NCBI RefSeq assembly: GCF_002234675.1
Contig: NC_019879.2
Location: 22,067,855-22,131,854 of the forward strand
Direction of reading: 5' to 3'
DNA: 64,000 nucleotides
DNA from: Oryzias latipes
Taxonomy: Eukaryota; Chordata; Actinopteri; Beloniformes; Adrianichthyidae
In this document: one piece after another, positions 12,601-38,517 of the stretch
Layout of the letters: each line of letters opens with the position of its first letter
Position numbering within the stretch: position 1 is the first letter of the stretch
Notes under the pieces: model-generated
Database searches by the model: none
The model's input: only the letters and a program-made list of their open reading frames with translations
What the model was told of the DNA's origin: nothing
Position numbers and translations under genes: made by a program

Positions 12601-13230
12601 GGTCAGCATGACGACAGCCCACACAACAGCACTGGCTCCAAACACACAGCAGCTGTGGCGACAAAAAGTTCAACGCTTCCCCAAAACCTCAAAAAAGATG
12701 GGAATAAGGAACAGAATGATTCAGCCTCGATTTTGTTAAGATTAATAATCCAACCACACCCGTCTTCCATCAGTCTAGTCTAATCAGATGAATTTTAGGC
12801 ACTTTTAGGTGACATCATCTAAACCTCATACTCACTTCCTGAAGGACTGAGTTCAGTCTGTGGGTTTACTCTAATAATCCCAGATCTGTGGCGTTTTTTC
12901 CCTCAGGCTGGTTACGGGTACGGCCTGCCCATCTCTCGCCTGTACGCGCGGTACTTTCAAGGGGACCTGAAGCTCTACTCTCTGGAAGGCTACGGGACGG
13001 ATGCCGTCATCTACATTCGGGTAAATCTTTTCTTTGTGTAGCGCAAAGGGAAGGCCGTGCACGATTCGACACCTTCCTCTTCCTCTCAGGCGCTGTCCAC
13101 AGAGTCCATCGAGAGGCTCCCTGTGTACAACAAATCCGCCTGGAAGCACTACAAGACCATCCACGAGGCGGACGACTGGTGCGTCCCCAGCAAAGAGCCC
13201 AAGGACATGACGACGTTTCGTAGTTTTTGA
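9621..13230 (+). CDS. pdk1: Pyruvate dehydrogenase kinase 1, mitochondrial
   Basis: Phosphorylates the E1-alpha subunit in the mitochondrial matrix and switches off the pyruvate dehydrogenase complex. Eleven exons: 9621-9729, 9873-10014, 10093-10164, 10240-10424, 11258-11347, 11457-11534, 11809-11885, 11973-12071, 12163-12273, 12907-13020, 13090-13230; they join in frame to 405 residues. Visible motifs: [14 protein letters not shown] (about 25-37), the conserved [11 protein letters not shown] (His about 120), GHKL-fold ATP site with N-box ELFKNAMRAT (Asn 252), G1 DRGGG (about 287-291) and G2 GYGYGLP (about 323-329), and the C-terminal DW pair (388-389) used in dimer regulation. The end [12 protein letters not shown] is PDK1-like; many internal residues and the short leader look PDK2-like, so the paralog call leans on synteny with ITGA6 and RAPGEF4. 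The donor after 12273 (GTCCGT) is weak. Confidence 0.93.
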
Positions 13231-15009: not shown

Positions 15010-18000
15010 TCAGCAGACAGAGTCAGAAGGGACGGGCAGCTTCCCGCTACGCCGACTCTCCTTCTCTCTCTTCTCTCGCTGTTTTTCCATCTTCTCCTGG
15101 GCTTTTTTCAGTTCTTTCAGTTTCTTTTTGATAGTTGAGCGATCACTTTGATTGGAAACACCAAGAGCCTAAAGTTGGAAAAACATAAAAAACGTGAATC
15201 AGAATCCACATATATGTTTCAGCCACCAGGTGGCGGTAAAGAGCAAAACACCGTTTACTTTCTATTCAACCCTTGGATTTAGGTTTACCTTTAACTTGTC
15301 ACTGTCCAACAGCAGGAGCTGTTGGCCATCCACGGCTTTAGCAGTGAATTCTGCCGTGTACTGGTCCATGTTCATGCCCATCAACCAGTGGCAGACCTGC
15401 TGATTGGTCCACTCGCTGACCGGACGGTTGTGCCATTGATAGTCTTTACCCGCAGCTGCTGGCTCATCCTCCAAAGTCTACAAAGAACAAATACATTTCG
15501 GATCCACTCTTGTTGCTCACAGAAAAGCATTATCTAAAATAATGTAAAAAAATAGTGTCTGCAGACAGAGCATTTTAAAATATTAAAGCCAAATACAGCG
15601 CATAGAAGTCAAATTTCTGCTGATGTACATCACCCAAAGAAGGAAAAGTGAGAACTAGCGTGCAATCACCAAAAACACCAACAAAACTACAAAACAAAAC
15701 GAGGAGCAAAGCTGCAAAATCTGTTCGGAAGCAAAATACAATCAACATCCCAGCCGACAACACTAAAGACTTATTGCAACACTAAACAAATGCCAAGTTT
15801 GAAGACACACATGCAGCGCTCATATTCTGTCTCCATTCATGGTTTAATCTGTGCAATGAAAGGGAGGCCGGCTCAAAGAGCATGCTTGAGAATGTCCCCT
15901 TTCAGGCCCATCAAGGCGTCCCACACGGCTTTTGTAACTGAGCAACAAGGAGAGCACTCACCTCGCTGGAAGAGAAGATTAAAGTGTGTGAGCGCCCAGA
16001 CAGACTGGGTTCAGCAACTAACCCAGAGATGTCTGAACTGTGGCTGGCAGGGTTAGAATCATCTACCACTGACAAACTCTGGAACAAGTGGAAACAAGGA
16101 ACGCATTTACTAAAGAAACACAGAGGCAAACAGTACGATTTCTGTTTTTTTATCGAAAGCAAACAAACAAATGATGTGAGGGTTAGGAGGAGACACGTTT
16201 CTATGGAAACGGTTGTCTGCTATTCATTAGGAGTGGTTGACTTTGATCCAAAACAAGTGATATGAAGCGGAAAAAAAGAATCTACGGTGCGACTGATCCA
16301 TCCCCAAAACCACAACCATCCTCTAAACTACAACTAACTGGACAAAATATCTAAAGAAGGAAAACTAAACGACACTGATAAACTAAGGTCTGAGGTCGCA
16401 TTTATAATTAAGAAGAGACAACATGGAGATTATGGAAAGATCTACATTGATGTCAAACCCTGAAAACGCTCAATAAGTCAGTGAAGAAGGAACAGATACC
16501 GAGCCACAATGATCTGAACTGCAGTCTCTGTTTTCTTCATCTGTTTCTCTAAAATTAACATTAAGTGAAAAAATCCACGATATGGCTGCTTTTATCTTTC
16601 ACGTTTGATGCTACGTTCACACTGGCCTTGGAAAACGTGCGTTCCAGCGACCACTGTCAATGAAAAGTTCATGTCAACGCACATAAATGCATGTCTCCAG
16701 TTTCCGAATTCAGAATGTCTTCGCTGGTTTCTGTGCCTGTTTTTGGGATATACACACAAAACCTGTGACAATTGAGTGCGTGTCAAAAGTTAAACCAGCG
16801 TCTCACATGCCCGACGTGTAGCGTAAGCCGCATCCACACTATTATTACATTTCTCAAAACACTCATTGGTAAAGCCAAGGGTCTGCAGCAGCTGAGAGCC
16901 GATTTAAAGTCTGCTTTCGGCAAAAAGGCCTTTTCGACGCCTGCATGTTACAGTTTTTTTTGATTAAGCTTGAATGTGTTAAAAAAAAACGGGTTAATCA
17001 AAACCTCAGCTTGGAATTAAAAGCACAGTTTAGACACAACTAAATCTTCAAACACTACCACATACTCACTACAAAAGAAAGCATGAGGGAATTTATTGGG
17101 GTGTGTCAAATGTTAGAAAATCTGGAACTATGTTTGTTAGTTACATTCGAAGGTCTTTCTAAAAAAATCAGAGGGAGAAAAACGTGTATACTGTACCAAA
17201 TCTAACGAGCGACTGAATAAAGAAGACCAGGAGAGATTTGTCTGTTTAAAGGAAACATGAGAAATGCACTGAGGAAAAACACAATTATTCAACACAGAAG
17301 CAGAAACACTGAATTACAGAGAATCCTGTGCAACTTCAGAGCAGAAGAGGCTGGTAGAAATAGAAAAAAATGAGCAAAAATCTTGTACGCAAGATATTTA
17401 CATTTGAATGTGTTAGTCTGCATCAAAAACCCTGAACTATTGCCGCCAAAAAGAATATATGAGACAAAAAGAGCCAGAAATAATGTTCCTCCTCTTAAAT
17501 GACATGGGTTGTTTTTTTTAAGTTCACATTTTGTGCTTTTAGTAGACCTTATTCACGCACAGCAGATTAACATCAACTGGAAGAAATATTCCTCTTCTAA
17601 AGTCTGAGTTTTGGGGAGAGAAACTGGTCATAAAGAAGCACTTAAATCTTGAGCTGAGCTGCCACATTTAAAGGGTTTTTCCCACATGACAAGAACCCGG
17701 TGTGCACACTCATACAAAGCTGGACCCTCTCCTCACAGTGTGCAGTTTAGCAGATCGGTGCACAGCTTAAACACTGCAGACTTCTCATACAAAGGAATAA
17801 CATTATATTTTCTCAAATAAATAAGACATTCAAGATCTAACGGAGCATTAAATGAAGAAAAAAAGAAATGGTGGATGAAGACAAAACACTAGAGATGAAT
17901 GAAAGGAACTCAGCTTTTGTAAATGTGTCCAGAATTTTTTCAAGATTTTTCTTTAAAAAAAAGAATTTAAAAAAATGCAAATGTAGCTTCTAACATGACA

Positions 18001-21000
18001 CAGAATTTCTGTGAATGACTAAGGACTTAAATTTAAGTTTTAATAATTATATCCAAGTGCTGCCCTAAGCATTTTCAGTAATTATCATTACTGAAAACAT
18101 AGTTCTGATCTTGGAAAAGTAACCCCTAACTATCGGTTTGACTGAAGTTGTTATAGAAAATGTTACAAAGTGAGGCTCATTTGGAAAGCCGGTGTGGGAA
18201 CTGATGACTCTGATGACTCTGGCCTTTTAAAATCAGAATTGACTCATTTTTGTTGGATATCAATCTCATCTGGAGAAGAAACAGATGTCCTCCATACTTT
18301 GTTAAAGGATGAACACACAAAACATAATATCAGTGAAGATTCTTGTACCTTGTTTCTGCGTTCATGGTTCTGCTCGCCGCTGGGCTCGCTCGCGGTGTAC
18401 GGCAGGCTGCAGCTGCTGCTGGAGGACGGACCTTCTCTGTCTTTATCCTTCTCTCTGTCTCCGAACCAGGAGAAGGGTATGCATGTAGGAATGGCGGTCA
18501 TTGATTCTGCAGGAGACAAGTTTCCTCCAGATTCCTCCAGTAACTCTGCAGACCCCCTGATCATTCCAGAAATAGGAACGTTAAATGTGTGTTGAGAACT
18601 GGCAATGAAAGCTACAAATCTAGAGGAACAAACGTGATGATAGGCCCTTCATATGTATTAATATCAAAGTTGTTAAAATAAAAACCTGCTGTCCAAAGAC
18701 GCTCTGAAAGCCTCTTTGTCGTGTTTCTTTCCTTTTCCACCTGACTTGCGGAGGCCCCTGCTTGCGTGATCAGAAACATTTAGGTTAGAAAATGAAACAA
18801 AAACTTTGATTTAAGGTGATGGGTTCAGATACTTGCCCAAAATCTGGAAATCGCCGTTTGGGTTTTCCTCCTTGAGAAGTTTCACCAAAGTCTTCTGTAA
18901 TCAGAGTCAAAATCATTCTTGAGAAGGGTTGGTTCCTGTGAGGATCAACCCTGGACATCACAAACCTTTCGGCTCCTTTGTCTTGCCTTTGGACTCCCTC
19001 TTCTTGCGGATGAAGCTGGTGGGGGACTGGGGTGAGGATGCGTGTTTGGGAGGGGACAAAGAGGGGCTGCTGCTTTCAGGACTTTCTCCCTGTGATGGGG
19101 ACAAAGACGGGCTGCTGGAGAGCTCCACGTTACTCCTGACTGCGTCAGTGCTGATGTTCGGATCATCTTTCCGTCCACTCCCAGGATAACAGGCGCTAAC
19201 TGGGAGAAGCAGGTTCTCCCCAGTGGACCTCCGACTGCTGGAGGAATCCAGCTCCTCCTGCTTGTCCTCCTCTTCCGTTTCCTGCAGGGACCAAGCTTGT
19301 TATTTTAAAGGACAATACAAGGAAGAGAAGACGAAAGCTATTTATAAAAGTGGAAGTTTGTCTTTTTTGTGCGGCAAATTTGAATTTTCCTGTAATACAC
19401 AGATTTGTTTTTTATTTAGACACCTTATTAAAAATCAGTGATCTTGCAAGCGCTTTATTTCTAGGCTACCACATTGTCATAAGTCTTAGGTGGGAGGAAT
19501 CTCAAATTGCATTAATGCTGAGATTTCTTGGCTCACCTGAGAGTAGGATGAAGCCACAGCAAAGCTTTCCTTCAGTTTGCTCCGGGATGGAGGCTGACGC
19601 TTAGCCATCTGAGCCAACTGGCCTTTGGCTCTGTGTACGCTGGTGTCCAGGCGCTTGGTTTCGGGGATGGACTCGATCCATTCTTGTTCTACAGAAATAA
19701 AAGCCAAACGAGTTAATGCCATGGCCACAAGGATGCGGCTCCCCCGCCTGGACACTAGCAATTAATGCATGCGATGAAGGGTAAAAGAAACAAGATATTT
19801 GGTCATGCCAAACGCACAGCAAACCTTTCCCAAATCACACACATCTGAGAACAGGAATCTACACAACCTGGCCACCATAGTAAAAAATATTTCAGTCCAA
19901 CATCCAGAGTTTGGGAAATTAGGTAACTGGAGGACAATATTCAAAAATCTGTGAATGTTTAACAGCATTGGTAAAAAAGAAAAGAATGATTGTGTTGCAA
20001 CATTTGAGTCAAAGTCCAGACTTGAGTGCGATTGTTACAGCAGCTGCGCACGGATCTACCTATAAACCTCAAGTTACAGCAGCAGAATGAGACAACATTC
20101 CTTCCCATTTTTGTCAGAGACTGATAACAGTACGCAGGAAATAAGTACTTCTAGTTAATGGATAACAATCCTTACTCTTCAGGAATGATCTAAAAGAGAG
20201 GACTTTTAAAAAGTGTCTAAGGTAAAACATTTGACTGACAGGTGACGCGTTCATAAATTGAGATGGAAAACAATCCTTTCATTCCTTTATTTTCTTCTCT
20301 TTATATGAAACAAATGGTAGCTTTAAACAGGATGCATTTATCTTTATTTTAAGCCTATTTTTTTCAATACATTGTTTGATTCCAGGGACTTTGGCTCTTT
20401 AACATCTGTCATGTTGATTAATCAGGGCAGCATTTAAGTCTGAACAGGTTATTCAGGATTATAGAGCTGAAGAGCTAGTCAGAGACACTAAGCATGAGCT
20501 GAAGCCCTTTGCCCTGAATGTTTGGACCGTATAACGTGCTGTAGCATAGAAAGTTAAGGTGAACCTTAAAAGACTTTTTCTTTCACAAGCTATGATGTAG
20601 CGTAAACATTAAAAGTATGTCCACAATGCTCAGAATCTAAAGCTGTGAGGTCAATGTGTGAACAGCAGCTGGTAATACTCTGTCTGAAAGGGGCATCCTT
20701 CATGTAAAACTTTTATCTTTCATTTCAAAATGTTCTCCCACAGCAGACACGCATGTTTACAGTTCAAACTCAAGCACTGACACACAGCTGCAGATACAAG
20801 GTCAACATCGGCATTAACCATTTTTTCCCATGGATTTCTCAAGATGTGGAAGAGTGGAGGACCAACCCATCAACCTGGCAATTAGTGGGCAGCCCAGAGG
20901 AGTCCTTAAGCCTCAAACTAACATGTCAACTATACAGCCACAAGGGCACGAGTAGTGGACAGAAGCTGCAGGACAGTTTTTATCTTTGTAAATATAAATA

Positions 21001-24000
21001 GATAAAAAAATAAAAAGATTTATTGTGGTCAGCTCCAAAACTGCAACACTAATTTCCATAAAGAATATACTTTAATTGCCCAGAGTGTGCCTGCTAATCT
21101 AAAATAGTTCAATTCTTAGTGCTTAGAAGTTTGTAAAACGATCATTAGTGATTAGATTCAGGTATGCAGACACAACATGGCTAAATAATCTTTAAATCCA
21201 TGCTAGGTGTGCGTTTAATGTAGTTTTTTTCCTCGTGGGCTCCAAGGACCCCAGGAGAAGATGACAAGTAAAGCAAAAAAAAACTGAATTACTTTGCCAC
21301 TTTATAGTGACGGTTATTAATAGATTAAAGCAAAAGTCTAACAACACTTCAAGCAAGCAATCTCAGGAAGCAATATCAAAATAATTAACATTTTTTCATA
21401 ATTAAAGCCAAATGTGGAACCAGCTGTGGTAAAAATCAACTGATAAGAAATTCTTTTCAATTTTTTTACTCAGCACCTGCCTACCATAATGCTTTGATGA
21501 TGGCTCACTTAAAATGGAAAACATGTTACATCTGATATCTAAAATGTTCAGACATTAGACTGGCGTGACATAATTACAATAATGTTTACTTTTCTCGTAT
21601 TAAAATAGAGACTGATGCAGCTGGATTAGATGGGAAATCTATAAACAAAAAAATCCTCCAAAAACAATAATCTTCTTTCAAACCATTTCTTATCATTTCC
21701 TATCATTATATGATAATAAAAGATAAGTATGTTGGACTGGAAACATCTTTGTCTGCTTTTTTAAAGTCAGTCTTGCTACTGTTTAGAATAACTGAACAAA
21801 AAGTGTTACAGTTTCTTAGTTTTGATTGTGTAGACAAAAATGTAACAGATTTCAGCTGCCTTTTAAAAAGCTGAATTTTTAGAATTCTTCTAAAAATATT
21901 ATAGACAGGATTGCTAGAACCCTCCAAACAAAGTGATACATTTACATAAAAAATGCAGTTGAGTATTTTTACTGTACCAAGCAGCGAATCAGTAGACTGA
22001 GTGTTTGTAACCGAGTCTTGGCTGCTTCGTCTCTCCTCTGTAGCAGAATCCTCACCACTCTGACCTTCCACACCTGGAGCCTCTCTGTCCTCTAGGACAG
22101 GAATCTGGGAGGAACAAGAAAAAAAAAAGAAAGAACAAATCAGCATACATTCAGTTTCTTTTGCAAATTTGCATGCATGCAAACTCTATTATTATCTTAC
22201 TCTGTTCTGTAGGTTCTCCAGCTGCTCTTTATACCACCTGTCTTTTTCCTCTAGAACCTTTTTCAGCTCCTCTTCTTTCTTCACAAAGTCTATCTCTCTT
22301 TGGAAGAAACAAAAAATGTTCCATTAGAAGAGAATCACAAAAAGGCGGGCCTCTTTAAAACAAGAAAACGCACAAAGAAAAAAATAAACCATCAACACCC
22401 AGGACCTAGTCAACTTTTTCACCTGAATTCCCCACCATGACGGCCACACAAACGGAAAGGACAAGACTGGAACAAAACCCAGTCCTGCTCGAAACAACCA
22501 AGCTGACATCAGAACACATTTGTTATCTGCTTGACATCTACCTGAGCACCACCTATTTCCAATTTTAGGAGAAATTCTAGAGGCAAAAACACATCTGTGC
22601 CGTGGGATCATCAGTATGCCCAATAGCGCCATCCTTCAATGAAGCTGCACCAACACCGTGGTACACGGATGACAGCTAGGCGTGATTGGAAACCCAGAAG
22701 GTGGAAGAATCTACTCATCACATCAATGTAGTGAACACATACATATGATCTTTTCAACACTGTGGACCTCGCCTGTGGAACAGCCTGCCTGAGGACGTGA
22801 GGGCTTCAGCCACTGTGGAGGTTTTTAAGAAAAAACTTAAGACACATCTTTTTAGTAAAGCTTTTACATAGTTTTTACTTGTCCACATGTTTTTATTTGA
22901 TTTTATAAAATTTTAACAGCTAATTTTATTTGTTTTTATTTTAAAGGAGGGATGTGTATGTGTTGGGTTTTTGTGTGTTTTTATTAATTCATTTATTTTA
23001 TTATTATTTGCATTTATTTTTATTTTTATTATTATTACATTCTTTTTACTTTGTTTATTATTTTAACTAAAATATATATTTTTTTATCTTATTTGTTTTA
23101 TTTTTTATTTTTTTTTATTTTTTCCTTTGGTAAGCACTTTGAGATGCTATGAAGCATGAAAAGCGCTATATAAATAAAGTTGAATTTGAATTTGAATGAT
23201 TCACTAAGGATATTGCAAAGGACAACGATTGACTCGACAGGGACTGCACAGATAAAAAGAATCTGAATATTTGGCTGTGCAGGAAACCCCCCTCACACTG
23301 ATCAGTACGTCATTTGTCTCCTAAAACACACAGAACCAAGGCGTAATGAGAACTGTAAGAGTTCTGAGCAGAAATAATACCTACCCGTAATTTCCGGACT
23401 ACAAGCCGCTACTTTTTTTCCTGCGCTCACAGCCCTGCGGCTTATTCTGTGACGCGGCTAATTTATGGATTTGATTGGCGGCCGCCATGTACGAACATTC
23501 GGGCTCGGTGAATGGTTTTGTATGCGCCATCCACCACCAAGCACAAGTCATTTTTTTTTTAACACACCTCTAAGCAGCCAAACAGCATGGAGGTCACTTC
23601 AGGTCTTAGACACTTCAGTCATGGTTCAACAAAAAGAAACACGCATGCCCGGCCGCATCCCAGAATCCTTTGGTGCCATTAGACCCAACGTGCACTTGAT
23701 CGCCGCTACAATATGATAAAGCTTTCAAGTTAAAAGCAATCATTAAAAGCAGCGTGAAAAAATCCCCCATCAGTAAATGGAAATGCCGGTCAGCTGCGTG
23801 ACGGAGAGAACAGCGCATGCTCAGAAGTGTATTTACCTCTGAGTCATAGTGACTCGGCTGGCTGCACGTAAATATGTGTGAATAACATCAGCCTTTATTT
23901 TGTCGGGACACGACTGGAAACACAAATCCATTTGGTCGTTTTTACGGTTTCTGACTGAGCGGAATTTTGCATTGAAAAGCTCACAGCCACCATGTGAGCT

Positions 24001-27000
24001 TTTCGGATAGGAAGGGGAGACAAGGAGCCCGCTTGGCGAGCGCGGAGCGCAGAGGCGTCCGGGGAGCAACAAGTGTTTGTTGTGAAAGGAAGCTTCTGAC
24101 GAACGCGCCGCGCTGAGGCGCGCGCTATTTTACTGATGTTTTTTAACCAGCCCCGTTAGTACCATAATGCTGCCGCGACACAAGTGGAAGGAGAGCTGTT
24201 CCTTTTCACCCCTCCATGCACTGCTGCTCCTTGCTCATTCTTAAACACGAACAACAGTGTGGCGAGCCGGGCGTTGGCCCCGCCTTTAGCCCCTAAGACT
24301 CATGGGAAATGGGGGATCGCGGATGTAAATTTCCTCATCATAACTGAGGGATGTAATGTTGATTATATGGTTACTGTTAGTAATTTTATGTATGATACCT
24401 AGTTTGTCAATAAGTTAAAAAAAATAAAAAAAAAATCAAATAAAAAAAACCATAACTGAGGAATTTGTGAACAGAATAGAGGTGCATGCTGTTTCAGAAG
24501 TGGGTGTAATTAGATACATGAGCTTGAGACAAGGCCAGTACCTGCCCACAGTGTGGTAATGAGCCATGCACACTCTGGTAGTCAGGACGCGCTTTGTCGA
24601 GGCAGCGGCTTGTATACTGATGCGGCTTGTGTATGTACAAAAACATTTGAGCACGTTAAAATAGGTGGGTGCGGCTTGTAATCGGGTGCGCTTTATAACC
24701 CGGAATTTACGGTAAACGTTCAGAAGGAACCAACAAGGAAAAGATCTAATGGCTGATTTCTAATCTGTCTCTGCTCTCTGCTTTTGGCATTTGGTCATTG
24801 AAGTGTTTTTTTTCTATCACAAATGAGTTCTTTCTTCTCTTTAGCACTGCTAAAAAGCTCCCCTGAACCCCCTATGAGGAGAGGGGTGTCAGTCAGCCAG
24901 TCACCCGTAGTCTGAACCAGTTTAAGAGAATGAAATTCAAATAAATTATAAATAGTATGAACACATCTTTAATGTCATCTAGCTCTAAACTCAAACTAAA
25001 ACTGGCTGAGAAAAGAAAAGGACAGATTTACTTAATGGAGCCAGATTGACAGAAAATGCACTTTTTTTCCTAATTCTGCCTCCAGGTGATTCATTTTTTA
25101 ATGAAATCATAACAAAACAGCCTAAAAACATACGTTTTGGATTCTTGCCATGATGTCATTGACAGTAAAGATGCAGCGCTCTCCCAAGGGAGGGCTTTTT
25201 GCAGCTCAACACCGGCTCTGTATATCCCATGTGTCCAGGAAACTCAGGAGGATCTAGCAAGAAATCCTTTAAACCTCAGGCCAAACAACACACTTTGACC
25301 AAAACTGACCCGCCCAAAATCAAAACACAGAGGGAAAGCAATCTACTGAGAACTTGAAAATGACCTTGTGGCATTAATCAACAAAACCTGCAAAACATAT
25401 CACAACTTTAATTATAAAATAAATATTGAAAATGAGATATTTTCGCTTTGGCGTATAGACAGCAATAGAGTCCAGTTGCCCTAAAGAGCAAAATCATGTT
25501 ACTATCATGTAAACTTTAGCTCACACTTGTTACTTTTAATAAAATCCAGTTTGGTTCAGATAACTTCCAAACAGAATAAACAAAATAAACATAAAATCTG
25601 TGATTTCAAGCGTCTCATTTTCCATTTTTACTCAACAGCTGCTTTTTCATTTTCTCTTCAAATAAACCAACCTGAACAAAACAACTTCAGACTCACTTTT
25701 GCTGATAGTCCTTCAGAAGTTTCTTAGCTTTGTTGTACTTCTTGTCCAAAGTCTCATACTGCGCTTGGGTCTCAGCTAGCTGTCCGTTTACGCTCTTACA
25801 CACAGCCTGGGCCTCCAGCCAGTAGCTCTCCAGCTTTTGGATCTTGTCGTTACTGTCGTCAATCTTCTGCTCCAGGGCAGACACCCTGGTCCCCCACAAA
25901 GATTTCTCCTCCTCCAGTTCATGCACCTACAGAGAAGGTGGAATGTTGCTTCAGAGGCATGACAATATGCTGTCACACAGCCTGTGCGTTGATTTTAACT
26001 TCATTTTCTATCACAAACATTGTATTGAAAAAAGAACTTTGAGACTTAAAAATAAGTCATAAATGAGACAATGATGACTACTATACATATCAGTTTTCAC
26101 TGATACATTATTGCCATACCTTTAATTTTAGCTGATTAATGTCATCCATTGCAATGCTGTGTTTAAGTTGCAGCTGCAGAAAAGAATCAAAAACAAATAA
26201 AAATTGGTTAACTCTGTTAATTACGTTACCCTGAATGATAAAAGACCAATTAACAGACTGGGATACCTCTTTGAATCTGAAAGACATCTGAGAGCCGTCC
26301 ATGTTGGTTGGCATGAACATGGCCTCTGACTCAGGGAGCTCAAAAACCTCCACATTCCGCCCTGGAGAAAAATTGGATCCCAAAATCCTTTCTTCTATCA
26401 CGTCCTCCTCCTCGTCATATCGCTCCTCCTGGAAAAATTTTTGCACTGGATGCATGTCATCTGAAAACCACCCAATGTCCAGGAACACGCTCCGCAGTGT
26501 GTCAATAACACGCCTACTGTTCACCAAAGACTGGCGGGAATTTTGGAATCAATACGTTTTTAGCTAACAGCAGTAGGCTGGACTCCAGAAAACTATGACA
26601 AGTTCATGAGACTAAATACAATTAAAGCGAAGAACCTGTATTCTAAGTCCACAGAGTCCATTTCTGCACTGATAACTGTTTGGGTTCTGCTCCTGCTAAT
26701 CCTATTTATTTTGCGCAGTCTCTCTCTGTTGCAAAAGTTCAAGTCTGTGGTGGCTCGAACTCTGAAAAAAGCAAACATTTCACAACTCTGGCAGACAGAT
26801 GGCAGCTGAAAGAACATATTCCAACAGGGCAGAGCGGTGACACATGGCTTACTCACAGCCAGCTGCTCATTTCCTGGTTCAGCCGAGTGGGATAGAACTG
26901 GGAGGGGGCTAGGACAACTGCAGAGTCACCTCACAATATTCTATAATTATGAAAACTACACTTGAACCTCTTGAACTGGAGATTTTGATATCCGATTCTT

Positions 27001-30000
27001 TTCGAGTGATGGAAGTGGAAATCTTCTGTTTAAAATAATAAAACAGTGCCACAACCATTGCTTGAAACACAGTTATGTCATAGGTGAACTAACCTCCTCG
27101 GTGGAGTGCTCATATGGGTCATCCAGGTTCTGGTGCTGCTGCTGGGTTCTCTCCTGCTCCAGGGTTTCGCTTATGAGGCGGGCCACCTCACTTTGAGTTC
27201 CTGGCTTCTCTCGACCAATCAGGAAGCTGTTTTTTTTTAATTTTTTATAAATACATTAGAGCACTTGTTACATCTAAATATCTAACATCTAAATAAAGTC
27301 TAAATATCTGCTCAGAAAAATAAATACCTTAATAAATCTGTAAACCATTTTTTAATTTAAAAGACCATATTTATCAACAATAAATTTACCATAAAAACAT
27401 TGTTTAAGAGTTAAACTGACCTGACAGTGCCTTTGGTGTTCTTTAAGACAGTTGCAGCAAACAGCTGGGTGACTCCTACCAGACTGACACCATCCACTTC
27501 CACTATCTGGTCATTCACCTGGATTCTACAGATACAAACACGTTTTTCAAGATTTTATCATGGGGAGTTGAGGAGTTATGCACACAAATGAACAGAAGAC
27601 AAATACAACAGATTTCGTGTAGTACAAAAAGACTGTTTTCTCCAAGTTAAGAGTTATTAAAACATTTCTACTATAATTAGTAGTTTTCAAAAGCCAATTT
27701 CAAAATTACAACCCAGTACATTTTATGTGTTTGATATACTTTAGGTACTTGGAAGAACATTTAAGGGTTGCTCTAAAATATGATGCTAGAGTTGTGTACA
27801 CGTAAATAAAATTAAAAGTTCAAACTTACCGTCCATCTTTCTCAGCAGCTCCATTCTGGGTTATAGTTTTCACAAAAATGCCAAGCTTTTCCAGACCCTG
27901 ATCAGCTCCAACTCCCATTCCAATGATACTAATGCCAAGGCCATTGTCTCCTGAAAACAGAAAAAGTGGGGAAGGGGAAGACGGAACTTATATTTTGTAG
28001 TATTTCATACATTGTGGTTATCTAAGGATTAGAAATAGAGACATTTCATACAAAATGTAAACCAAGTGTAAGACTGAAGATTGAATGTGAGAATGAGGCC
28101 ATTGTATATTACATTATCAGAACCTGAGTGCAAGAATGCAGTGGTGACTCATTCAAAAGAAGGAATTCCTACAACACTAAATACAAAGGAGATCTGGTAC
28201 TTCATGTTTTTACGTTTCAAGCTATTAAAAAAACTGTTTAAAACAGAATTTGAACTCACAGAAATTCTACCAGTCAGACACAAAATACACATTTTTGCTT
28301 TTATATGGAGCCCAGCAGTTTTAAGCACAGTCAAAGCTCCAGATCTGTCCCTTCTGTCTGGGGGATCATGCCTAATAAGCCATATTTTTGAGCTCAGTGG
28401 TGGATTTAATACCCCATGCTACTAAAGAGCTTTACTGTTTTTTTTTTTACTTGACCCGATCACCATGGTAACCTTTACCGACCACATTTTAATATGAGTC
28501 GCAGAAAGTCAGTAAGTCAAATCTTAAGGCTGTGGTGTAAATAATAGAAATATTGCGTCGGCTGACAGAGAAAAGATATTGTTGAACTCACAACATGTGC
28601 AATGCCACCTTCAAGCAGCCGTTTTAGTGGATTCCTTTTCTCTATCCCACTTTTAAACCACTCAACTAAAAACTAGAGTTTAATTGTCATCTATCAAAAT
28701 GGAATAGTTTTGAAGCAAGATGGGAAAACATTTTTAATATTTCATGGTGCAAAGATCTGATTTATGCCCAATGAGATGACTTTTTCTGGGAAACAATATG
28801 TCTGAACACCTAAGAGAGCAGTTCTACTGAAGTTAGATCACTAAAATGTTTGTCTACCACCTACCTTTCTGAATTTCCACAGGAAACACATCCATCTTCT
28901 CCACTCTCTTTTCCAGCTCATACTCTGCAGATGCTGCAACTGGATCAACGTCATCATTGCGCCGATCATAGTCTTCATTGGAGAAGGTGCTGAAGATCTG
29001 TATTTGTCCAAAAGAGCACAGGAGTAAATTTCCCACAGAAACTCCTCATTTTTCTGCTGATGAGTGAAAAGCAATCAGTTTTGTCTCAGGAATATAATGA
29101 TTTTGTAACTTGATAACTTGAAACACAAACACAATTGAACCTCTCATTCATAAAGCATTAACACCTCGATATATTTTTTACCCCACAGATCTAATGTTTA
29201 ATACAGCAGCAAAGGAGAAATTTCCAACATGTATTAAGCTCATCTTTTTGCTTGATATAAAAAAAACAGACATCTGCAGTAAGAAAGTCCTGAACCATGT
29301 GGGAAGTAGGACACATCTGGAGAAAGCTTGGAGGTGACAAACCATTTTCTATTTTTGCTCATAAAGACATAGATTAAGAAAAAGGAAAAACTCCATCATT
29401 TTAATGTAGCCCCCCACAAAGTCCATTTGTTAGAACATGAAACACCTTGTGTTGTTTACCCTGAATACCAGAGATTAAATACCAGACTATCTCTGCCTCC
29501 TAAATCACAAAAATCCGTCTGATGACGAGGACTGCATTTCGAGCAGAGAAATATGCGTGAAGAGCAGCTTTGAGTTAGCAGAATGAGGAGAGAGAAAAAT
29601 GAAACTGCTTTCTTGCATCTTTGCTTTTTTGTTTGCAACAACCGTCATATTTGCTGGGACAACATTAAAATCTAAAAAGCAATAAATTGGAGAACGGAAG
29701 GAGTAAAATCCTATTGTTTAAAAGAAGTAATCCACTGATAAATGTACTATTACATTAGCACCATAAGGGCCTCTTTGCAGGCTTCTTGGCCATTTGTAGC
29801 AATTATTGTTTTAATTCCTTATTCAAAAATGACATTGCTAGTTACTAAATTTGATGTTACCTTTTGAATGCAAAACATGCAACACAAACTCATTTTCACG
29901 TTTGCATGTTGTAAAAGTTTATTAGTATATAAATAATACAAATGACAAGAAAGTAAGCTCATCACTTACTCAAGGATCATCAGCTGTAAAGCTTTAGATG

Positions 30001-33000
30001 CTTGTTTTTTTTTCAAATTCTGTCATATTCACATGTAAACATAAGTTAAAAATAGTGTAAATTACTTATAGAATAAATGTTTCAGAAGAATAAAATTCTG
30101 TCCTCTTATTTACAGACAAACCCTTAAATTGTTGAGGTTGAAGAAGCAGCTATACTCAACATAAAATCCTATTAATATTTCTAAAACATGCATCTGTAAC
30201 TAAACTCATAACATAATATTGCCAGTTTACAGTTTCAAGACTTGCAGAATTCAATGTAATCTTTGTAATAGCAAAATACTCCTCTACTAAAACATGATAG
30301 GTGCTCATCACATCCTAAGATGAGGAAGAATAATATAGATGAGCAAGAAGATTAGAGTTTAGAAGACATCAGCAGAGGCTAAAGCCTGATTAGAGAAGTC
30401 AACCTAACAGAGGGTCGCCACTATAAGCCCCCTGCTGTGCCATTAGTAGTCTTTAATCTGTATGGGGTCAAAATGACCCGTCTAATGCCAAAAAGTGCAT
30501 CATAAAACTGCTGCTGAGTGAATCAATTTAAAGTTGATTCTGATTCATTTTCCTCCAATGGGCGTCTAAGAGAGTACTAAAAGCTTTGACTGACCAACAT
30601 CTATAGAAAAAAACTGTTTTCCTTGAATTTTTAAAATAAAAATAGGAAGGATGATTAATAGAACGAGAAAAATAGGAATATAGAAGATAACAAGACAGCT
30701 ACACTTTGTGAAGCTTTTATCTAATATAAAGAAACCGTAGCTTTTGCAGAGGTCACCGATGCCCTGCATTATTTCAAGATGAAGAAAAACACATGCAAGA
30801 TGGGAGAAGAAAAAGCTCTGTTTGAAATCCACGTAAGCAGATAATAGACTGCAATGAAAGCATATTGTTTGCTATTTCTTCATTGACTAAAATTAAACCT
30901 ATACAAACATATTTGCTGTTTGCTCAATTTAAACGTATCTGTGAAAAAATAAAAGTTTTTTGAGATACATTTGATATCCTAGGTGGTAAATTCAAAAGCT
31001 AACAGTATTATGTCAACTTAATACAATGGCATCCATCTCAAAATAGTTTCCAAAGCCGTTCCTTGCTCCCTTAGACTGGTTACATGTGAGGAAAACATTT
31101 TCCACTGACATTTTCAACAACTAGTAAACAACTTTAACTTTATTTTATGATACATAAAACAAGATCCTTACTTTGATTGGAGAAAACGTGGTTTTTGTTG
31201 ACTTAAAACGGTCATCTTTTAAGTATGCTAAGCTAAACAATACATCAAGGTGTCAAAATGCAATTCTCATTCCATGCAAACTATAATAGCAGCCAAATCC
31301 AGTGTTTTTCCTAGACTAATTTGAGGCATGTACTGTAAGGTTACATGATGTAATCATAGATATTTCTGCAACAAGTCAAGACCTGAAGACAGCTATAGAA
31401 AAATGCCTCTCTCTCCAAGTCTTCCTCTCTTCTTTGCACAGCACAGATGCTGACATTGAAAACAGAGCACATAGTCAGTTCCTTAACAAGAACTGAACCC
31501 AAAAGCAGAATAAGTTTGATTCCACGGTGCTGATGAGCCAAAGACCACTCTGAAGTAAACCACAGGAATAACATTGTCTGTAATTGTCATCTTTGTTGCC
31601 AAGTGTTTATAAGGAAAGATAAAAATCACAACATTGCAAGCAAGTCTCTTAAACTTTGGTTTCAAAGTGAATCACTTCAATTATTTCATCTTCCGTTTTG
31701 GAACTTTAAGGACTTTTAAACTTATCAAAAATGTCAATATCCTCCCTTTAAAAAAAAAAAAATATCCACTGTTTTACTCTGAAATGAAAGACAGTAAAAT
31801 AAACAACTGATGTTCTAATAAGTAGCTAATAATGGCTTGATTGTACAGACTTTAACACCAAACTACGTGTTTTACTTTGAACGGTTTCTGAGCCATATTC
31901 TAATCATCTTTGTTGTTAACATTTCTTATCAATAACATCATTTGGCTCAAAGGAACACAAACTCTTTAGCAGACTAAAAAAATCTTTACTAATTGTATTT
32001 TAAACTCATTAAAAAAATCCATCCAGCCATTCATTTTACAAATAGGCTAAATCACTTTCAGGGCCACAGGATTGCTGGAGCCTATCCCAGAAATAGTTGG
32101 GCAAAGGCAGGGTATACTCTGTACAGGTCGCTAGTCCATTACAGAGTCACATATTAAAAAAATAATAATCAAAAGTTCTCTTTTTAACTTTATCAATTCT
32201 CAAGCTCTAATCTGGATCCAGTAGGTTCCAATGCTTTTATCACATTTCCATTTCTTCCCCAAAACAACCCACGAGCAAGATGTGTGGGCTTGCTATCCAT
32301 CTTCTCCAACTTTGATGATCTTTTCTGTACCGCATGTGAGCTTTAAATGCACAGATGTACATGTCCCCACACCCAAAATGAAAACACTTTCCACCCCTCC
32401 CTCATTCCCCTCAATATAACAGAATACCAGTGTGGGAAATGAGTCAGCATCTGTATGGAAAAGCAAACGAAAAAAAAAAAAAGGTCAGTGTAAAAAAGTA
32501 TGGGCTGATCGCTGGAAAGAGGTAATTGTAATCTAAACAGAACTACAAAAAGGCAACAAATCATGCATGCTGTAAAGACTGAGCTGGAGAAGAAATGAAA
32601 GCAAATTCAGATTTTAGAATTTGAGTAGACACAACAGTGAACACAGTGTACTTCCTGTTGGCCTTTCTTTTCTTACTTTAGAATTAATGTTGACTTCGGT
32701 ACTTCATATTTAAAACTATGCATCTGTATCGATCCAAAATCAAATCTAGCAGTGTTATGAACAAACTGACAACTTTTAATTGAAAACAGTTGCCAAAACA
32801 AACCTCAAAGTTCAAAGGTTCTCTTTTTTACCTGAATCTGTAAAACAGAGCAGCAGCAGGTTAGAGCTAGGACTGCTGAATAAACCTGTCCAAGTTTTAA
32901 ATGGCATCCAGTCACATGGAAAGCTCAGCCTTCAGTCCAACAAACTATACTATATTTTGACTTTTTGACACCATGTGCTCCAGCTCCAACAAAGTATAAT

Positions 33001-36000
33001 GGATGACCAATACAACGGTATTCAAATTTGCCCTAAACATCCCTGTGGTGATTCATGACCCGAACCAGGAAAGGAAGAGCACAAACTGGTTGGACTGGTT
33101 TTTTTTTTTTTTTTTTTTTTTTAATCAGTGGCCTACAAATGCTTTCTTTTTCATGTAAAACCAGCTACGAATTCTAACACATTATAACTTTAATCCTTTA
33201 TTTAAAAAGAATATTTGAATGTTTAAGCAAAGAATTACAAAAATCTCAACACTCATTCCATTTCAAGCGGTTTAATAAACAGCCTTGGACAGGCCACAAC
33301 AGCATTCTGCCTTGTTTTAATCACCCACAGGCGTCTTCATAACAGCGTTTCTTTTTATTTTTTGTTTTTGTTAAATGTGGGTTGGGCCAAGTCAGACAAA
33401 TTAAAATGTTTAAATTTTAGCAAGATAAACACATATAATAAAAGGGTGATTTATCTGTAAGGGCCAGTACTGTAACCAAATACGCTTTTTTTGTACAACT
33501 GTATAAGTACCAGTAATTTGTTTTCTGTAAAACTCAAAACTGTTGAACAACTAATTATTTATTCCCAAAAAGGCCCTCGACTTCCAAAGACTAAATTAAT
33601 CAAAATTAATTATTTGCCCTTAAATCAAGGCTCAAGGTGACATAAACTTGAAAAGTCTGAATTCACATTGGTGCAAGGCTGACAAGAGATGATAAACTGT
33701 TTGTCACAAAACATGTTCCATCTTTATGAAGCTTGCTACATGACACAAACAAACAAAAAAAACTGGTTTAGGTTGTCTGAATTCTTTGGTGACATTTAAA
33801 CTTTTTCTTTTGCAAATTTTTAACAAACAAGATTGTAAAATAACTTAACTCTTTACTGTGGGGACGAAGGAAAAAAACATTTACAGGACAAGGCAAACAG
33901 CTGGCCTAATGTGTACAGTGTGAGCACCAAAAGGTTGGTTAGAAGAATCCAAACCGTCTCTGACCACGCCCTGTGTGCTCAAAAAGGGACAACGCAGCCT
34001 CTTAATTAAAAAGCGCTCTTCCTTTGGCTGAAGGCAGTGCGGGGCAACAGGTGCAGATCTTAAGCTTTAGTGGTAATGGTCGACTCCAACATTCAAAATG
34101 TTCTTGCATGTCACATGGTATGACTCAACACAGCCTCAGACTTCCAAGATAAATGCTTCGGTAATGACGATGCGGTTTTCACACAACCAAGCAAATGAAC
34201 AGACCAACAGCCGTGATCAAGAATGATTAAATTACTCTTAAAACTACATTGTGTTATAAAATGGTGCAACACTCAAATATAATAAAAAAAAAGATCAAAG
34301 TATGACATGTTTTGTTACAGATACAGGTCAATACATTATTCCTATTAATAGATTTAATTTAATGTTTAAAGGGAAATTACAACTTTGCTACGTGTAATAC
34401 TTATTTTGCACCACAATCAGTAAGTACAGTGAAACTGCAGGATCTACATGCATCCACACACAAAAAGACTCAAATTGACACAAATCAGACTTGTCTATGT
34501 ATTTTAAAGATTCCAGTAGTTTTTTCTCTCGAAATGCCCTGAAAGTTAAAAAAATCTTTGTCAATAAATTTAACTTTACATGGTTAAATCCTGTGCAAGT
34601 ATAACATGGAACAGTTCAAGTGCCAGGCCCATTAAGTGTATTTGTCTGCAGTAAGCATTAAATATTTGCCTTGAATCCCTTCTTATCCAAATTTCTCTTT
34701 TCATCCCAGACAAGGCTGATGCGTGTTTAGAGCCAATTTATCCTCTGCTACACAAAGAAGACCTTTCTTCCACACAGGAGTTCTCTGTCGAGGATTCTTG
34801 GGTTACTTAGGAACCCAATCCTGTTGTGAGCAGGCAGCACAACGCACTTCCTGTCTCCTTGTCAGTTCCAGCACAAGCCCATTTAATTTCAGTACCAGGG
34901 CAGGTTAGTTGCCTGTGGAAAATCAGGCATTTGTAGGTGCAACTAGAAATAGAAATGTTAGCTGACAAACAGTATAATTTTGGACAAACATGACTTCAAA
35001 TTTGGCACATATATCTAATCAGACTATCAACAACGCAGAAAGTCTTTCACTGGGAGTTGTGAACAAATCCAGAGTTTAGGACCCTATTTTAATATACAAC
35101 TGTACAGTTGGGACTATTTTTGTCGAAGCTTAACTTTTGTTTGTGTCCCCTCCACTCCAGGCCAGCTTCTGGTCCCCTCTCCCAGGACCCCCCCCATGAC
35201 TAGGATGGGAATCCACACCCTCAGATAACTCATTTTAAAAGTCTGTATAAACAGCGAGCAGGTCGCAAACTGTGCGGAATGCACGGGAGTGATTTGTTCT
35301 GTTATTTTCTAGCTAAATAAGATATGGTAAGTGTAGAAAATCAATAGTGGAAAATATGACTTGTCCTTTCACCCTTACCCCTTTCACTGAAACTATTCTT
35401 CTTTCTCTCTTTCGGCTTTAATCTTTCTTTTTTTTAAATGCATCAAAATTTCTTTGATCACAAATAGTTTGGTTTGTCACTGTCAATATGAGGGATAGCA
35501 CTCTTGCCTCACAGCAAGAAGGCCCCTGGTTCAAGTCCCGGCTAGGGGATCTGAAACAGAACATCAACAGGGGACCTTTCTGTGTGGAGATTGCATGTTC
35601 TCCCCGTGGCATGCGTGGGTTCTCTCCGGGGTCTCCGGCTTCCTCTGTCCAAAAACATGCTTCATAGGTCAATTGGCAACTCTAAACTGTCCATAGGTGT
35701 GAGAGTGATTGGGTGTGTGATTGTGGCCCTGCGACAGACTGGCGAACAGTCCAGGGTGTCCCCTGCCTTCGCCTACAAGTTGCCAGGATCGGCTCTACAA
35801 ATTCTTTATAGCCCCTACAGGCAAAAGTTAAAAGTGAAGAAAAGAATTCTTACAAAAAACATTTAAGTGTTTTAGAAATCAACCAGAAAACTGTCAACTT
35901 TAATAGAATTTGCAATTTAGCTTGACTGTTGACATTTGGGTTATGTAGCATCCATGAGACTGACTCTGGACCTATTTAAGCTACTTTTAATTGCCTACAC

Positions 36001-38517
36001 AGCTGTAATGTTTGTTCTGCGATTCCCCAAAGCGGACAGAACAGGCGGCTGAACATGGAGGGATTCCCTAACTTCATAAATAACACACTCACAGAGGAAA
36101 TAGGAAACACTGAGGGGCTTTCACTTGTATCACAAATATACCACAACAAACATTCAAAATAAGTGCCTGCATGGCAGGAACAGGTCATATATAATAGAAA
36201 AATCGGATCCATAGAAATGCTCATGAAAGCAGACGAATGCATTTTTTTGAGCTGCTGACTCCATCCTGCTTTTGATTGGATGAGTGAGCATGCACAGATG
36301 CATTTTACAAAAACATGAGGTTTTACTTGTGTCTTTAACAAGAAAACAAAAACAGAAACACACCAAAAAAAGGATTTAAAACAGGTCAATGTTTTAGCCC
36401 AACAAAAACAACCACAACCAAACTTATCATCTATGCCGAGATAAGAGAGGCGGTTTAACAACCCACTTCCTCTTTCATCAAAATTAAACAAACAGTAGTT
36501 CTTAGTTTGTTTTCTTTTTTGAAGCTGTAGCCAATCTCATAGGATGATGCACTCCGGCAGCTTTGACGTGAACACACCAGACAAAGCAGGTACTCTTCTC
36601 TTCCACTGATTTGTTTTGAGTCTGCAGGGAACACCCAGGTCAGACACCAACTGCTGAGTCAGTCTAACAGCCAGACTGTGGTTTTTAATAAAAGGTACTG
36701 AAGATTTTTGAGCAGTGCATCAAATCTTTAGATGTAAACAAAACACTTACCAGAATGGGATCCGTGGAGAACTGAATTTTTCTCTTAGAGGGAGGCTCAT
36801 CTTCTTCTGACAAACCAGGGGCCTCATAGCAGTACTCATCCTCCTTATACATTTGATCTTCCTCATCTTCATAGTCCTCCTCTTCTTCCCTCAGCATCTG
36901 TTCTACGTCCTTGTCGTCCATGAATGCTGCATTCTCAATGCCGCAGACTATAGGAGAAGCTCGTCCATGACTTTGTAGGTCCTCCTGCTCCTCTAATGTC
37001 TCATCTTCATCATCCTGACTCACAGCCAAACTGTCTTCTCTTCTCTTTTCTTTCAGAACTAAAGCCTCGTCAACCACATCAGTTGCCCTTTGTGTTTTTT
37101 TAATTCCCTCCAGCGAAGTGACTTGGTTAACTGTGTCGAGCTTCACTTTTTCTGGCGTAAAGCTCCTTCTGACGTCGTCGTCCTGTTGTTGCTCTTTCTC
37201 CTCTTCAAACACGTCATCATCATTATTTGCCTCCTCGTTCTCTTCACTTTCCGAGGATTCATTCTGCACCACGACCAGCTCAGCCCGGACCGTGCCGGGG
37301 CCTTTGGAGCTCGGTGACGACGTCTGGCTGGTTGCTTTGTCCCCTCTGGGGCTAAGCGTTACATCATCATCCCTTTGGGCTCTTTCGGGGGTTTTGTCCC
37401 TGCTGGCGTTCTGCGGGCCATCAGCTGTTGGAAAAGGCTGTTTCCCATCCCTTGGGGGGGTGCTATGTGATTTGCCTCCATCCCCACCAACAGATGTCCG
37501 ACTTAAGCCATTGACAGAAGAGAGCTTGTTGCCGTGGGTGGTTGTGGCAATTTCCTCTGCTGAGTGGGGTTTGTGAGTGGCATCAGTTGACAAAGAATCA
37601 GATTTAGATGTTGGGCTGCTACCATGGACTGTGGATTTCAACACAACGCTCGACCCCAAAGAAGCAGATTTACTGTCCTTGCTTTTACTGGACATCATAG
37701 ATGAGAATTCTGAGGCTTCCATCACAGAAGCCGGCTGCGTGCGTTCAGTGGTACTGTGTTTAGAAGACAACAATCCTCCTTTCCCACCATCTGCGTTTTC
37801 AGCTGCATGGTTTTCCAAGCGCATTGATATAGGCCCTACATTTAACTGTGTTTTGGACAAATGCTTTTTTGCATCATCAGCTGCATCCTCTGAAGGACTT
37901 TTAAGGGGTGATGCAACAGTTTGCTCAGATTTACTAGGAGTTTCTATGGATCCTGAAGTTCTCCTTCCACTTTTCCCATCATCAGAGGAGCTTCCGAGGG
38001 ATAAACGGTTTACCACCCTGCTTGGAGTCTGCTTTTCGGCTGCAGGCGGCTCTTTGGTGCCCCTTTCAAACAGCTTCCTGGTCACGGAGAACTTTTCTGC
38101 CAAAGCCACCTTGTCGATCTCCGCATCTTCTCCTTTGGATGTTTTATCAGCACTGTGCGACTCGGGGCTTGAAGCGCTGTTGAAGCTAACCCTTTGAGTG
38201 ACAACAGGAAACGGCATCTTTGGTGGGGAGGCCTGGGGAACATCTGACTTAAGGGTTGGCTTCCCCTCCTGGGCCTCCTGAAGCTGACCGTCCATTTGTA
38301 GGAAAATGTTTTTTATCTTGTTCACCCTGGTGCCAAAAGGTCTCCCCCTGGACTCCTCCCGGGTGTCCGTAGATCCATTTGCAAGGGTTTTGGAGGGTCC
38401 CTCTGGCTTTAGTCCATCAAAGGAGCATTTAATGGCGTGGAAGTCAGACTTGTAGGAGTTTCTGTGAGGGGATGCACTCCTTAGGGTCCTCTCCCCTTTA
38501 GTTTCCGCTTTTATCAT
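15010..38517 (-). CDS. ppp1r9al: Neurabin-type scaffold (PPP1R9 family, PP1- and actin-binding), third paralog
   Basis: Synaptic/actin scaffold that docks protein phosphatase 1. Coding exons 5' to 3': 36751-38517, 28865-28997, 27830-27950, 27421-27525, 27094-27226, 26267-26428, 26120-26173, 25697-25926, 22201-22297, 21978-22104, 19537-19688, 18966-19281, 18837-18894, 18686-18757, 18349-18598, 15962-16078, 15289-15477, 15010-15168. Phases agree throughout; about 1413 residues. N-terminus has the family start ([15 protein letters not shown]) and [12 protein letters not shown] of the actin-binding region; TRKLFERG follows. PP1 motif RKIQF at 579-583, then [11 protein letters not shown] about 633-722 ([12 protein letters not shown]). 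Coiled coil about 826-934. SAM domain in 15289-15477 ([20 protein letters not shown]), then a basic Lys/Glu coil to the C-terminus. The SAM domain excludes spinophilin (PPP1R9B); location beside PDK1 excludes the mammalian PPP1R9A position. Symbol follows zebrafish usage as I recall it. One intron appears to be GC-AG. Confidence 0.93.
15289..15477 (-). CDS. ppp1r9al: SAM-domain exon of the neurabin gene
   Basis: 63 codons in phase 0, [14 protein letters not shown] at the start and [10 protein letters not shown] at the end. It encodes most of the SAM helix bundle; the rest ([20 protein letters not shown]) is in the last exon 15010-15168. SAM domains mediate self- or partner oligomerisation. 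Neurabin-1 has one here, spinophilin does not. Confidence 0.93.
16079..18348 (-). other. Neurabin-gene intron
   Basis: 2.3 kb AT-rich intron between the IPFSWFGD exon and the exon encoding [10 protein letters not shown] sequence near 16610-16640 (gatgctacgttcacactgg) resembles ends of fish DNA transposons, but no partner end was found. No gene seen. Confidence 0.5.
18349..19281 (-). CDS. ppp1r9al: Extended C-terminal block of four clustered neurabin exons
   Basis: Exons 18966-19281, 18837-18894, 18686-18757 and 18349-18598 lie together with introns of only 71, 79 and 87 nt. They encode a Ser/Pro-rich stretch ([17 protein letters not shown]), then [18 protein letters not shown] and [15 protein letters not shown], a block found in long neurabin-1 isoforms and, from memory, in SAMD14. 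Reading PDFG-GLRKS in frame requires a GC donor at 18836-18835. The donor after 18686 (GTTTTTAT) is weak. These signs suggest alternative splicing. Confidence 0.8.
19689..21977 (-). other. Neurabin-gene intron
   Basis: 2.3 kb, AT-rich. I see no transposon ends, conserved reading frame or repeat array in it. Confidence 0.5.
22755..23205 (+). mobile_element. LINE 3'-end fragment
   Basis: Begins in a degenerate reading frame (ctgtggaacagcctgcctga..) followed by a long T-rich tract and the ending aagcgctatataaataaag then repeats of TTGAAT. This short-repeat tail is typical of 3' ends of fish CR1/L2-like LINEs. 5'-truncated, inside a neurabin-gene intron, opposite to the gene's direction. Confidence 0.55.
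23384..24712. mobile_element. pogo/Tigger-like DNA transposon, degenerate
   Basis: The left end reads CCCGTAATTTCCGG and the right end, inverted, CCGTAAATTCCGG; both are followed further in by ACAAGCCGC. TA flanks both sides (23382-23383, 24713-24714), fitting Tc1/mariner/pogo target duplication. On the + strand near 23712-23742 the bases read DKAFKLKAI, as in the helix-turn-helix start of fish pogo-like transposases. The rest is broken. About 1.33 kb, within the neurabin intron 22298-25696. Confidence 0.6.
24715..25696 (-). other. Neurabin-gene intron remainder
   Basis: AT-rich intronic sequence between the pogo-like element and the coiled-coil exon. Nothing further recognised. Confidence 0.5.
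27951..28864 (-). other. Neurabin-gene intron within the PDZ-coding part
   Basis: 914-nt AT-rich intron. No internal feature recognised. Confidence 0.5.
33099..33122. repeat. Poly(T) run
   Basis: 24 consecutive T. Could be the A tail of a retroposed element on the - strand, but no body was recognised next to it. Confidence 0.8.
35486..35800 (+). mobile_element. tRNA-headed SINE-like repeat common in fish
   Basis: Starts with a tRNA-like segment including a B-box-like GGTTCAAGTCC (35529-35539), followed by tgtggagattgcatgttctc, the Pro/Gly-like stretch and gcgacagactggcgaacagt, a dispersed fish repeat body I recognise. The A-box region is weak (gcactcttgcctcacagc). Partial copies of the same family: about 32040-32150 (reverse), 42815-42930 and 51250-51302. 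Not a functional tRNA gene: no cloverleaf forms. Confidence 0.6.
36751..38517 (-). CDS. ppp1r9al: First coding exon of the neurabin gene
   Basis: 589 codons in one exon, from ATG 38515-38517 to the GTAAGT donor at 36750. Carries the actin-binding N-terminus, a long Ser/Thr-rich low-complexity middle part, an acidic run ([20 protein letters not shown]) and the PP1 motif RKIQF just before the donor. Longer than the matching part of neurabin-1, where the motif lies about 120 residues earlier (from memory). Confidence 0.93.

Follow-up and report, generated by a model that had tools for sequence, protein, structure and literature searches.

A third, SAM-bearing PPP1R9 gene beside PDK1 in medaka: very probably the HOXD-side ohnolog of neurabin-1 and spinophilin

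Introduction

Neurabin-1 (PPP1R9A) and spinophilin (neurabin-2, PPP1R9B) are commonly regarded as a pair. A 64,000-nucleotide stretch of the medaka (Oryzias latipes) genome, hereafter the window, carries a further PPP1R9 gene between PDK1 and RAPGEF4, and an earlier note, made from the letters of the window, read it as the HOXD-side survivor of an ancestral block that held an integrin alpha, a PDK, and a PPP1R9 gene. Is it such an ancient third paralog, the product of an older single-gene duplication, a teleost duplicate of PPP1R9A, or a pseudogene or assembly artefact? A third teleost gene on the HOXD side would alter orthology calls in fish and would matter for fish knockouts that model the neurabin/spinophilin pair. 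The genome searched comprises 734,051,031 bases in 25 contigs, whose numbers in the medaka HdrR assembly we take to be chromosome numbers (C21 and so on); the window is C21:22067855-22131854.

Results

Gene model and neighbors

The PPP1R9 gene and its neighbors lie at the following positions of the window.

15010..38517, minus strand: third PPP1R9 paralog (neurabin-type), complete coding region in 18 exons, 1399 aa
36751..38517, minus strand: exon 1, N-terminal region to the PP1-docking motif (exon model)
36769..36780, minus strand: RVxF-type PP1-docking motif KIQF, residues 580-583 (alignment to PDB 3hvq/9gsu/3egh)
27094..28997, minus strand: exons 2-5, PP1-binding tail and PDZ domain (exon model, Pfam, PDB matches)
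22201..26428, minus strand: exons 6-9, acidic stretch and putative coiled-coil region (exons 8-9 match C17 and C8)
19537..19688, minus strand: exon 11, conserved block (identity with C17)
15010..15477, minus strand: exons 17-18, SAM domain and C-terminus (Pfam SAM, PDB 2gle)
60..5550, plus strand: ITGA6-like integrin alpha, 3' exons including transmembrane segment and CGFFKR tail (Pfam Integrin_A_Ig_3; exons matched to the C17 copy)
6867..8411, minus strand: NUP62-like single-exon gene (Nsp1_C, 119.8 bits)
9591..13230, plus strand: PDK1, first recognized reading frame to stop codon (best match PDK1)
49260..50942, plus strand: RAPGEF4 (EPAC2) cNMP-binding exons (at 49260 and 50781)

The exon model runs on the minus strand from a start codon at 38517 to a stop codon ending at 15010, and joining the 18 exons gives a single open frame of 1399 codons plus the stop. 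The SAM-bearing gene that the earlier note had placed here is real and intact; its coordinates agree exactly with those of the note, and Pfam finds its SAM domain. Its introns are GT-AG in 16 of 17 cases; the remaining one is GC-AG, with the GC donor at exon 13 (18894-18837, minus strand). Apart from this intron and a change of one residue, Arg to Ser, at the exon 4/5 junction, the model holds no oddities. Translated comparison with a second copy on C17 clearly matched 12 exons (1-5, 8, 9, 11, and 15-18), exon 11 at 53% identity over 47 aa (57% over 42 aa in a separate search). Exons 12 and 13 matched C17 weakly (E 0.018 and 0.09), these being the collinear matches picked from a list rich in chance ones; exon 6 is weakly like a C8 exon (E 0.036), and exons 7, 10, and 14 were placed by open frame and splice sites alone. 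The intron stretch at 23460-23890 (minus strand) holds a repeat common to the C19 PPP1R9 locus (94% identical translated stretch), which looks like an interspersed element.

The row of ITGA6, PDK1, PPP1R9, and RAPGEF4 described earlier was recovered by Pfam, PDB matches, and exon comparison with C17. The window PDK scored 167.0 bits with PDK1 vs 145.5 with PDK2, and the RAPGEF4 exon at 50781 matched EPAC2 at 104.4 bits; the name ITGA6 rather than ITGA3 or ITGA7 is an assumption from gene order. PPP1R9 and PDK1 converge, with 1.8 kb between their stop codons, and PPP1R9 and RAPGEF4 are divergent. The intact NUP62-like gene between ITGA6 and PDK1 was missing from the earlier row; when the genome was searched with its C-terminal domain, the sole match was the window copy. 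Downstream of ITGA6, 6204-6368 (plus strand) is a repeat shared in opposite orientation with the C17 integrin gene (~21611.4-21611.66 kb, minus strand), and an ORF of 102 codons in the ITGA6 region (2534-2842, minus strand) resembles by eye Myb/SANT-like DNA-binding proteins of DNA transposons.

Protein domains

Pfam analysis of the joined protein found PF17817 (PDZ_5) at residues 559-621 (E 1.3e-29; 102.6 bits vs a cut-off of 23.6), PF00595 (PDZ) at residues 630-712, and PF07647/PF00536 (SAM) at residues 1304-1368. The protein has an RVxF-type PP1-docking motif followed by the PP1-binding tail (PDZ_5), as expected of the neurabin family, and a C-terminal SAM domain of the neurabin-1 type. In the PDB alignment, the docking motif KIQF corresponds to KIKF in neurabin-1 and KIHF in spinophilin, within the stretches RKIKFS(S/C)API and RKIHFSTAPI, respectively. 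The top solved relatives of the PP1/PDZ stretch are neurabin-1 (249.7 bits) and spinophilin (245.1 bits). The PDZ domain is of the neurabin kind, with top matches to neurabin-1, spinophilin, and fly Spinophilin (141-228 bits); the next PDZ chain in PDB reached 108 bits over three stretches. Among solved SAM domains, that of neurabin-1 (PDB 2gle) ranked first at 83.7 bits, followed by Liprin-beta-1, with its three SAMs, at 52.5 bits.

Exons 8-9, in the putative coiled-coil region after the PDZ domain, match C17 and C8 exons at the same place. The N-terminus resembles C17 exon 1 (RSASPHR..YKSDF.AIK), and exon 1 presumably occupies the position of the neurabin F-actin-binding region. The protein looks like an ordinary neurabin and, by homology, would be a PP1- and actin-binding scaffold; nothing in its sequence hints at a new activity, which suggests that its interest is evolutionary.

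PPP1R9 loci and the C17 twin

A single 150-residue query gave 25 matches in the medaka genome, 20 of which fall in five PPP1R9 loci (C21, C17, C11, C8, and C19, four exons each); the other five lie in other PDZ genes at 40-48% identity. Of seven matches to a SAM query, five are exons of the genes on C21, C17, and C11; the other two are weak, at 29-30% identity. Because the SAM query matched it, the C11 locus looks neurabin-1-like, and the C8 and C19 loci, with spinophilin residues and no detected SAM, look PPP1R9B-like. The third type is found at two loci, the window and C17, and the C17 copy is the closest relative of the window gene in this genome.

The C17 copy (minus strand) lies between an integrin alpha with a CGFF tail, ending at ~C17:21613.4 kb (plus strand), and a second RAPGEF4 at C17:21638380 (plus strand; exon 86% identical over 50 aa). 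Since C17 (21609001-21638529) thus repeats ITGA-PPP1R9-RAPGEF4 in the orientations of the window, we regard the C21/C17 pair as a block duplicate. None of the 11 PDK-family matches in the genome lies on C17. A Hox9-type query found no Hox cluster on C17 and a second HOXD-like cluster on C15; a later translocation may be one answer to the separation of the C17 block from the C15 cluster.

Hox-linked gene order

The Hox9-type query located Hox clusters on C7, C8, C11, C15, C16, C19, and C21; the letter of each, including HOXD for C21, is presumed from the neighboring genes. A DLX query found pairs at C21:22.029/22.035 Mb, C11:10.695/10.700 Mb, and C19:4.192/4.199 Mb, and one match on C8, at 25.71 Mb. 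The order on C21 is DLX pair, ITGA6, PDK1 (plus strand), PPP1R9 (minus strand), RAPGEF4 (plus strand), and Hox cluster, all within 0.53 Mb end to end, so that the window PPP1R9 is linked to every element expected of the HOXD side. The order on C11 differs: PPP1R9 (plus strand), PDK (minus strand), DLX pair, and Hox cluster, within 1.0 Mb. PPP1R9 and PDK converge on both.

The distance from PPP1R9 to Hox cluster is 0.42 Mb on C21, 0.86 Mb on C11, 0.97 Mb on C8, and 3.63 Mb on C19. Four of the five PPP1R9 loci thus have a Hox cluster no more than 3.63 Mb away, an arrangement with a chance of ~1e-4 under random placement, or 0.0013 for three of four loci when the window copy is left out; both figures are rough, the distance limit being derived from the same data.

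The PDK-family matches fall on C21 (window), C11, C19, C20, and C14. The C19 PDK, at 18.82 Mb, is 3.3 Mb from PPP1R9, and its exon is closest to PDK2 (103.9 bits). The C11 PDK lies less than 30 kb from the PPP1R9 gene with which it converges. Over 115 aa it scored 199.6 bits with PDK2, 183.8 with PDK4, and 175.4 with PDK1 and is not PDK1-like; one exon alone gave 103.4 bits with PDK1 and 103.0 with PDK4. By position it may be PDK4; the bits favor PDK2.

Phylogeny

A tree was built from eight sequences: the five fish genes, mammalian neurabin-1, mammalian spinophilin, and fly Spinophilin as root. The alignment holds 145 residues (90 for fly Spinophilin, PDB 4xhv), and the mammalian letters come from PDB entries. 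The best tree (LG+R2) places the third pair outside A+B and not with mammalian neurabin-1 and C11. Supports (SH-aLRT/UFBoot) are 89.4/80 for the third pair, 87.8/62 for A+B, 95.9/94 for B, and 70.4/40 for A. Within B, C19 joins mammalian spinophilin before C8 (73.9/67), against expectation, which is a sign of weak resolution. With moderate supports and few residues, the sequence tree carries the conclusion only beside other evidence.

Approximately unbiased (AU) tests compared six topologies chosen by the analyst. The third pair outside A+B ranked first (p 0.955; 0.91-0.96 in six reruns with three models and two alignments). Trees that made the third pair sister to A (p 0.096-0.39) or to B (p 0.199-0.337) were not rejected, and one that made it a teleost duplicate of A was disfavored yet not rejected (p 0.058-0.26). 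Nesting inside teleost PPP1R9A duplicates, which the earlier note had set against its own reading, is not the arrangement that the best tree returns. The window gene grouped alone with C11 was rejected by AU (p 0.0036-0.0215) and not by SH on the 90-column alignment (0.054-0.073); a spinophilin origin of the third pair by teleost duplication was likewise rejected by AU (p 0.008-0.037) and not by the more cautious SH (0.13-0.20).

When the tree was forced to make the third pair a PPP1R9A duplicate, the joining branch was ~0 and the third stem 0.21. Compared with C11 across the 90 sites shared with fly, the window gene shows 23 differences, mammalian neurabin-1 10, and C8 12. To reach 23 differences, a duplicate of A of teleost age would need strong acceleration, and none was seen in relative-rate tests, which have little power at 90 sites: against fly, the window and C11 genes carry seven private changes each (p = 1.00), and the counts in six further comparisons were similarly even (p 0.71-1.00). 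Thirteen alignment columns set the third pair apart; the fly residue agrees with that pair in two of them (37 and 45) and with A+B, wholly or for the most part, or with A, in four (42, 62, 82, and 113).

Human counterpart, naming, and SAMD14

A human deletion spans the counterpart of this locus, presumably at 2q31. Its published gene list gives, in this order, DLX1, DLX2, ITGA6, PDK1, RAPGEF4-AS1, RAPGEF4, and ZAK and includes no PPP1R9 gene (PMC3704668), in line with the earlier statement that human ITGA6, PDK1, and RAPGEF4 adjoin without one. The same list has no NUP62 at ITGA6-PDK1 either. According to a DLX survey, Itga6 and Pdk1 flank DLX2, and Itga3, Pdk2, and Samd14 flank DLX3 (PMC2685005), which fits the proposed ancestral integrin-PDK-PPP1R9 block.

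Databases name a fish gene pair ppp1r9ala and ppp1r9alb, "9A-like"; it is probably the C21/C17 pair. The name ppp1r9ala occurs in a carp target list (PMC10113649). In the portions found of the literature on PPP1R9 paralogs, neurabin variants, and the PDK1/RAPGEF4 gene block, a third vertebrate neurabin is not named.

In Caenorhabditis elegans, the neurabin NAB-1 is described as combining an actin-binding part with PDZ, coiled-coil, and SAM parts (PMC6179291), which makes the SAM end probably ancestral. PPP1R9B and SAMD14 lie side by side in cow and in the human counterpart, and an automatic cow PPP1R9B gene model overlapped SAMD14 (PMC3833843). The capping-protein-binding motif of Samd14 aligns to neurabin-1 at 64.7%, both proteins having a SAM domain (PMC9282853), and the two SAM domains are termed highly homologous (PMC7689012).

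In three genome searches, neither C8 nor C19 showed a match to SAM or to SAMD14-like sequence, and tblastn detected no SAM in C8 23149501-23163500, below the C8 PPP1R9 copy. An exon-11 bait matched C21 and C17 only; as it missed even C11, failure to find SAMD14 is no proof of its absence from medaka.

Discussion

The third PPP1R9 gene is very probably the HOXD-side ohnolog of neurabin-1 and spinophilin. Two early vertebrate genome duplications would have produced PPP1R9A on the HOXA side, PPP1R9B on the HOXB side, and the third gene on the HOXD side, and a subsequent duplication of the block, most likely that of teleosts, the C21 and C17 copies; the gene would since have been lost in human and probably in other mammals. 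The tree, the C21/C11 synteny, and the DLX survey (PMC2685005) support the proposal of an ancestral integrin alpha-PDK-PPP1R9 block whose HOXD-side copy fish kept. Such a gene would complete three of four Hox-linked PPP1R9 sites.

An older single-gene duplication, outside any whole-genome event, could instead have made the third type, which later came beside PDK1, and a best tree with the pair outside A+B would also follow from a preduplication origin. We consider this improbable: the gene sits where the Hox-linked block predicts, converging with PDK as on C11, and four of five PPP1R9 loci are Hox-linked. A fast-diverged, teleost-specific duplicate of PPP1R9A that moved beside PDK1 seems improbable as well. 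Its AU values stay above 5%, it shares the SAM domain with PPP1R9A, neurabin-1 leads in PDB by a small margin, and a database-type name, ppp1r9ala (PMC10113649), points the same way. Synteny argues against it, the C17 copy having the same integrin and RAPGEF4 neighbors; there is also the rate evenness, and the joining branch collapses in the forced tree. Sharing a SAM says little when the domain is probably ancestral (PMC6179291). A pseudogene or assembly artefact is highly implausible, as no support was found for it beyond the GC-AG intron and the junction change, 1399 open codons over 18 exons lead us to reject a pseudogene, and twelve of these exons have clear counterparts in a diverged copy on a different contig.

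On the ohnolog reading, the protein most likely works like neurabin-1, as an F-actin-bound scaffold that would dock PP1 by KIQF, choose targets by its PDZ domain, dimerize by the putative coiled coil, and use its C-terminal SAM domain.

Spinophilin and SAMD14 may be halves of one former neurabin gene, SAMD14 being the missing C-terminal half of spinophilin. We lean toward an ancestral vertebrate neurabin that was one long gene, with a PP1/PDZ half and a capping-protein-motif/SAM half, of which the HOXA and HOXD copies stayed whole and the HOXB copy split into adjacent PPP1R9B and SAMD14. The HOXD copy, lost in human, would then give third, independent evidence of the unsplit state and an unsplit reference for this idea. 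The available parts of the literature found on SAMD14 and neurabin do not state such a split.

Set beside known systems, the third gene differs from its apparent database label: fish seem to have it filed as PPP1R9A-like, and the names ppp1r9ala and ppp1r9alb place it under PPP1R9A, whereas the tree and gene order of C21/C17 do not. SAMD14, represented by a bait sequence, has a SAM 58% identical over 43 aa to that of the window gene and is not known to have a PDZ or PP1 part. Spinophilin shares the PP1-docking motif, the PDZ domain, and the putative coiled-coil region, at 77% identity over 145 aa; unlike the third protein, it presumably has no SAM. Neurabin-1 shares all of these and the C-terminal SAM domain, its mammalian form is 81% identical over 128 aa of PP1 tail and PDZ, and PPP1R9A on C11 has a converging PDK neighbor, as does the third gene in the window; its wider neighborhood differs, and the 13 peculiar columns set the third pair apart from A and B alike.
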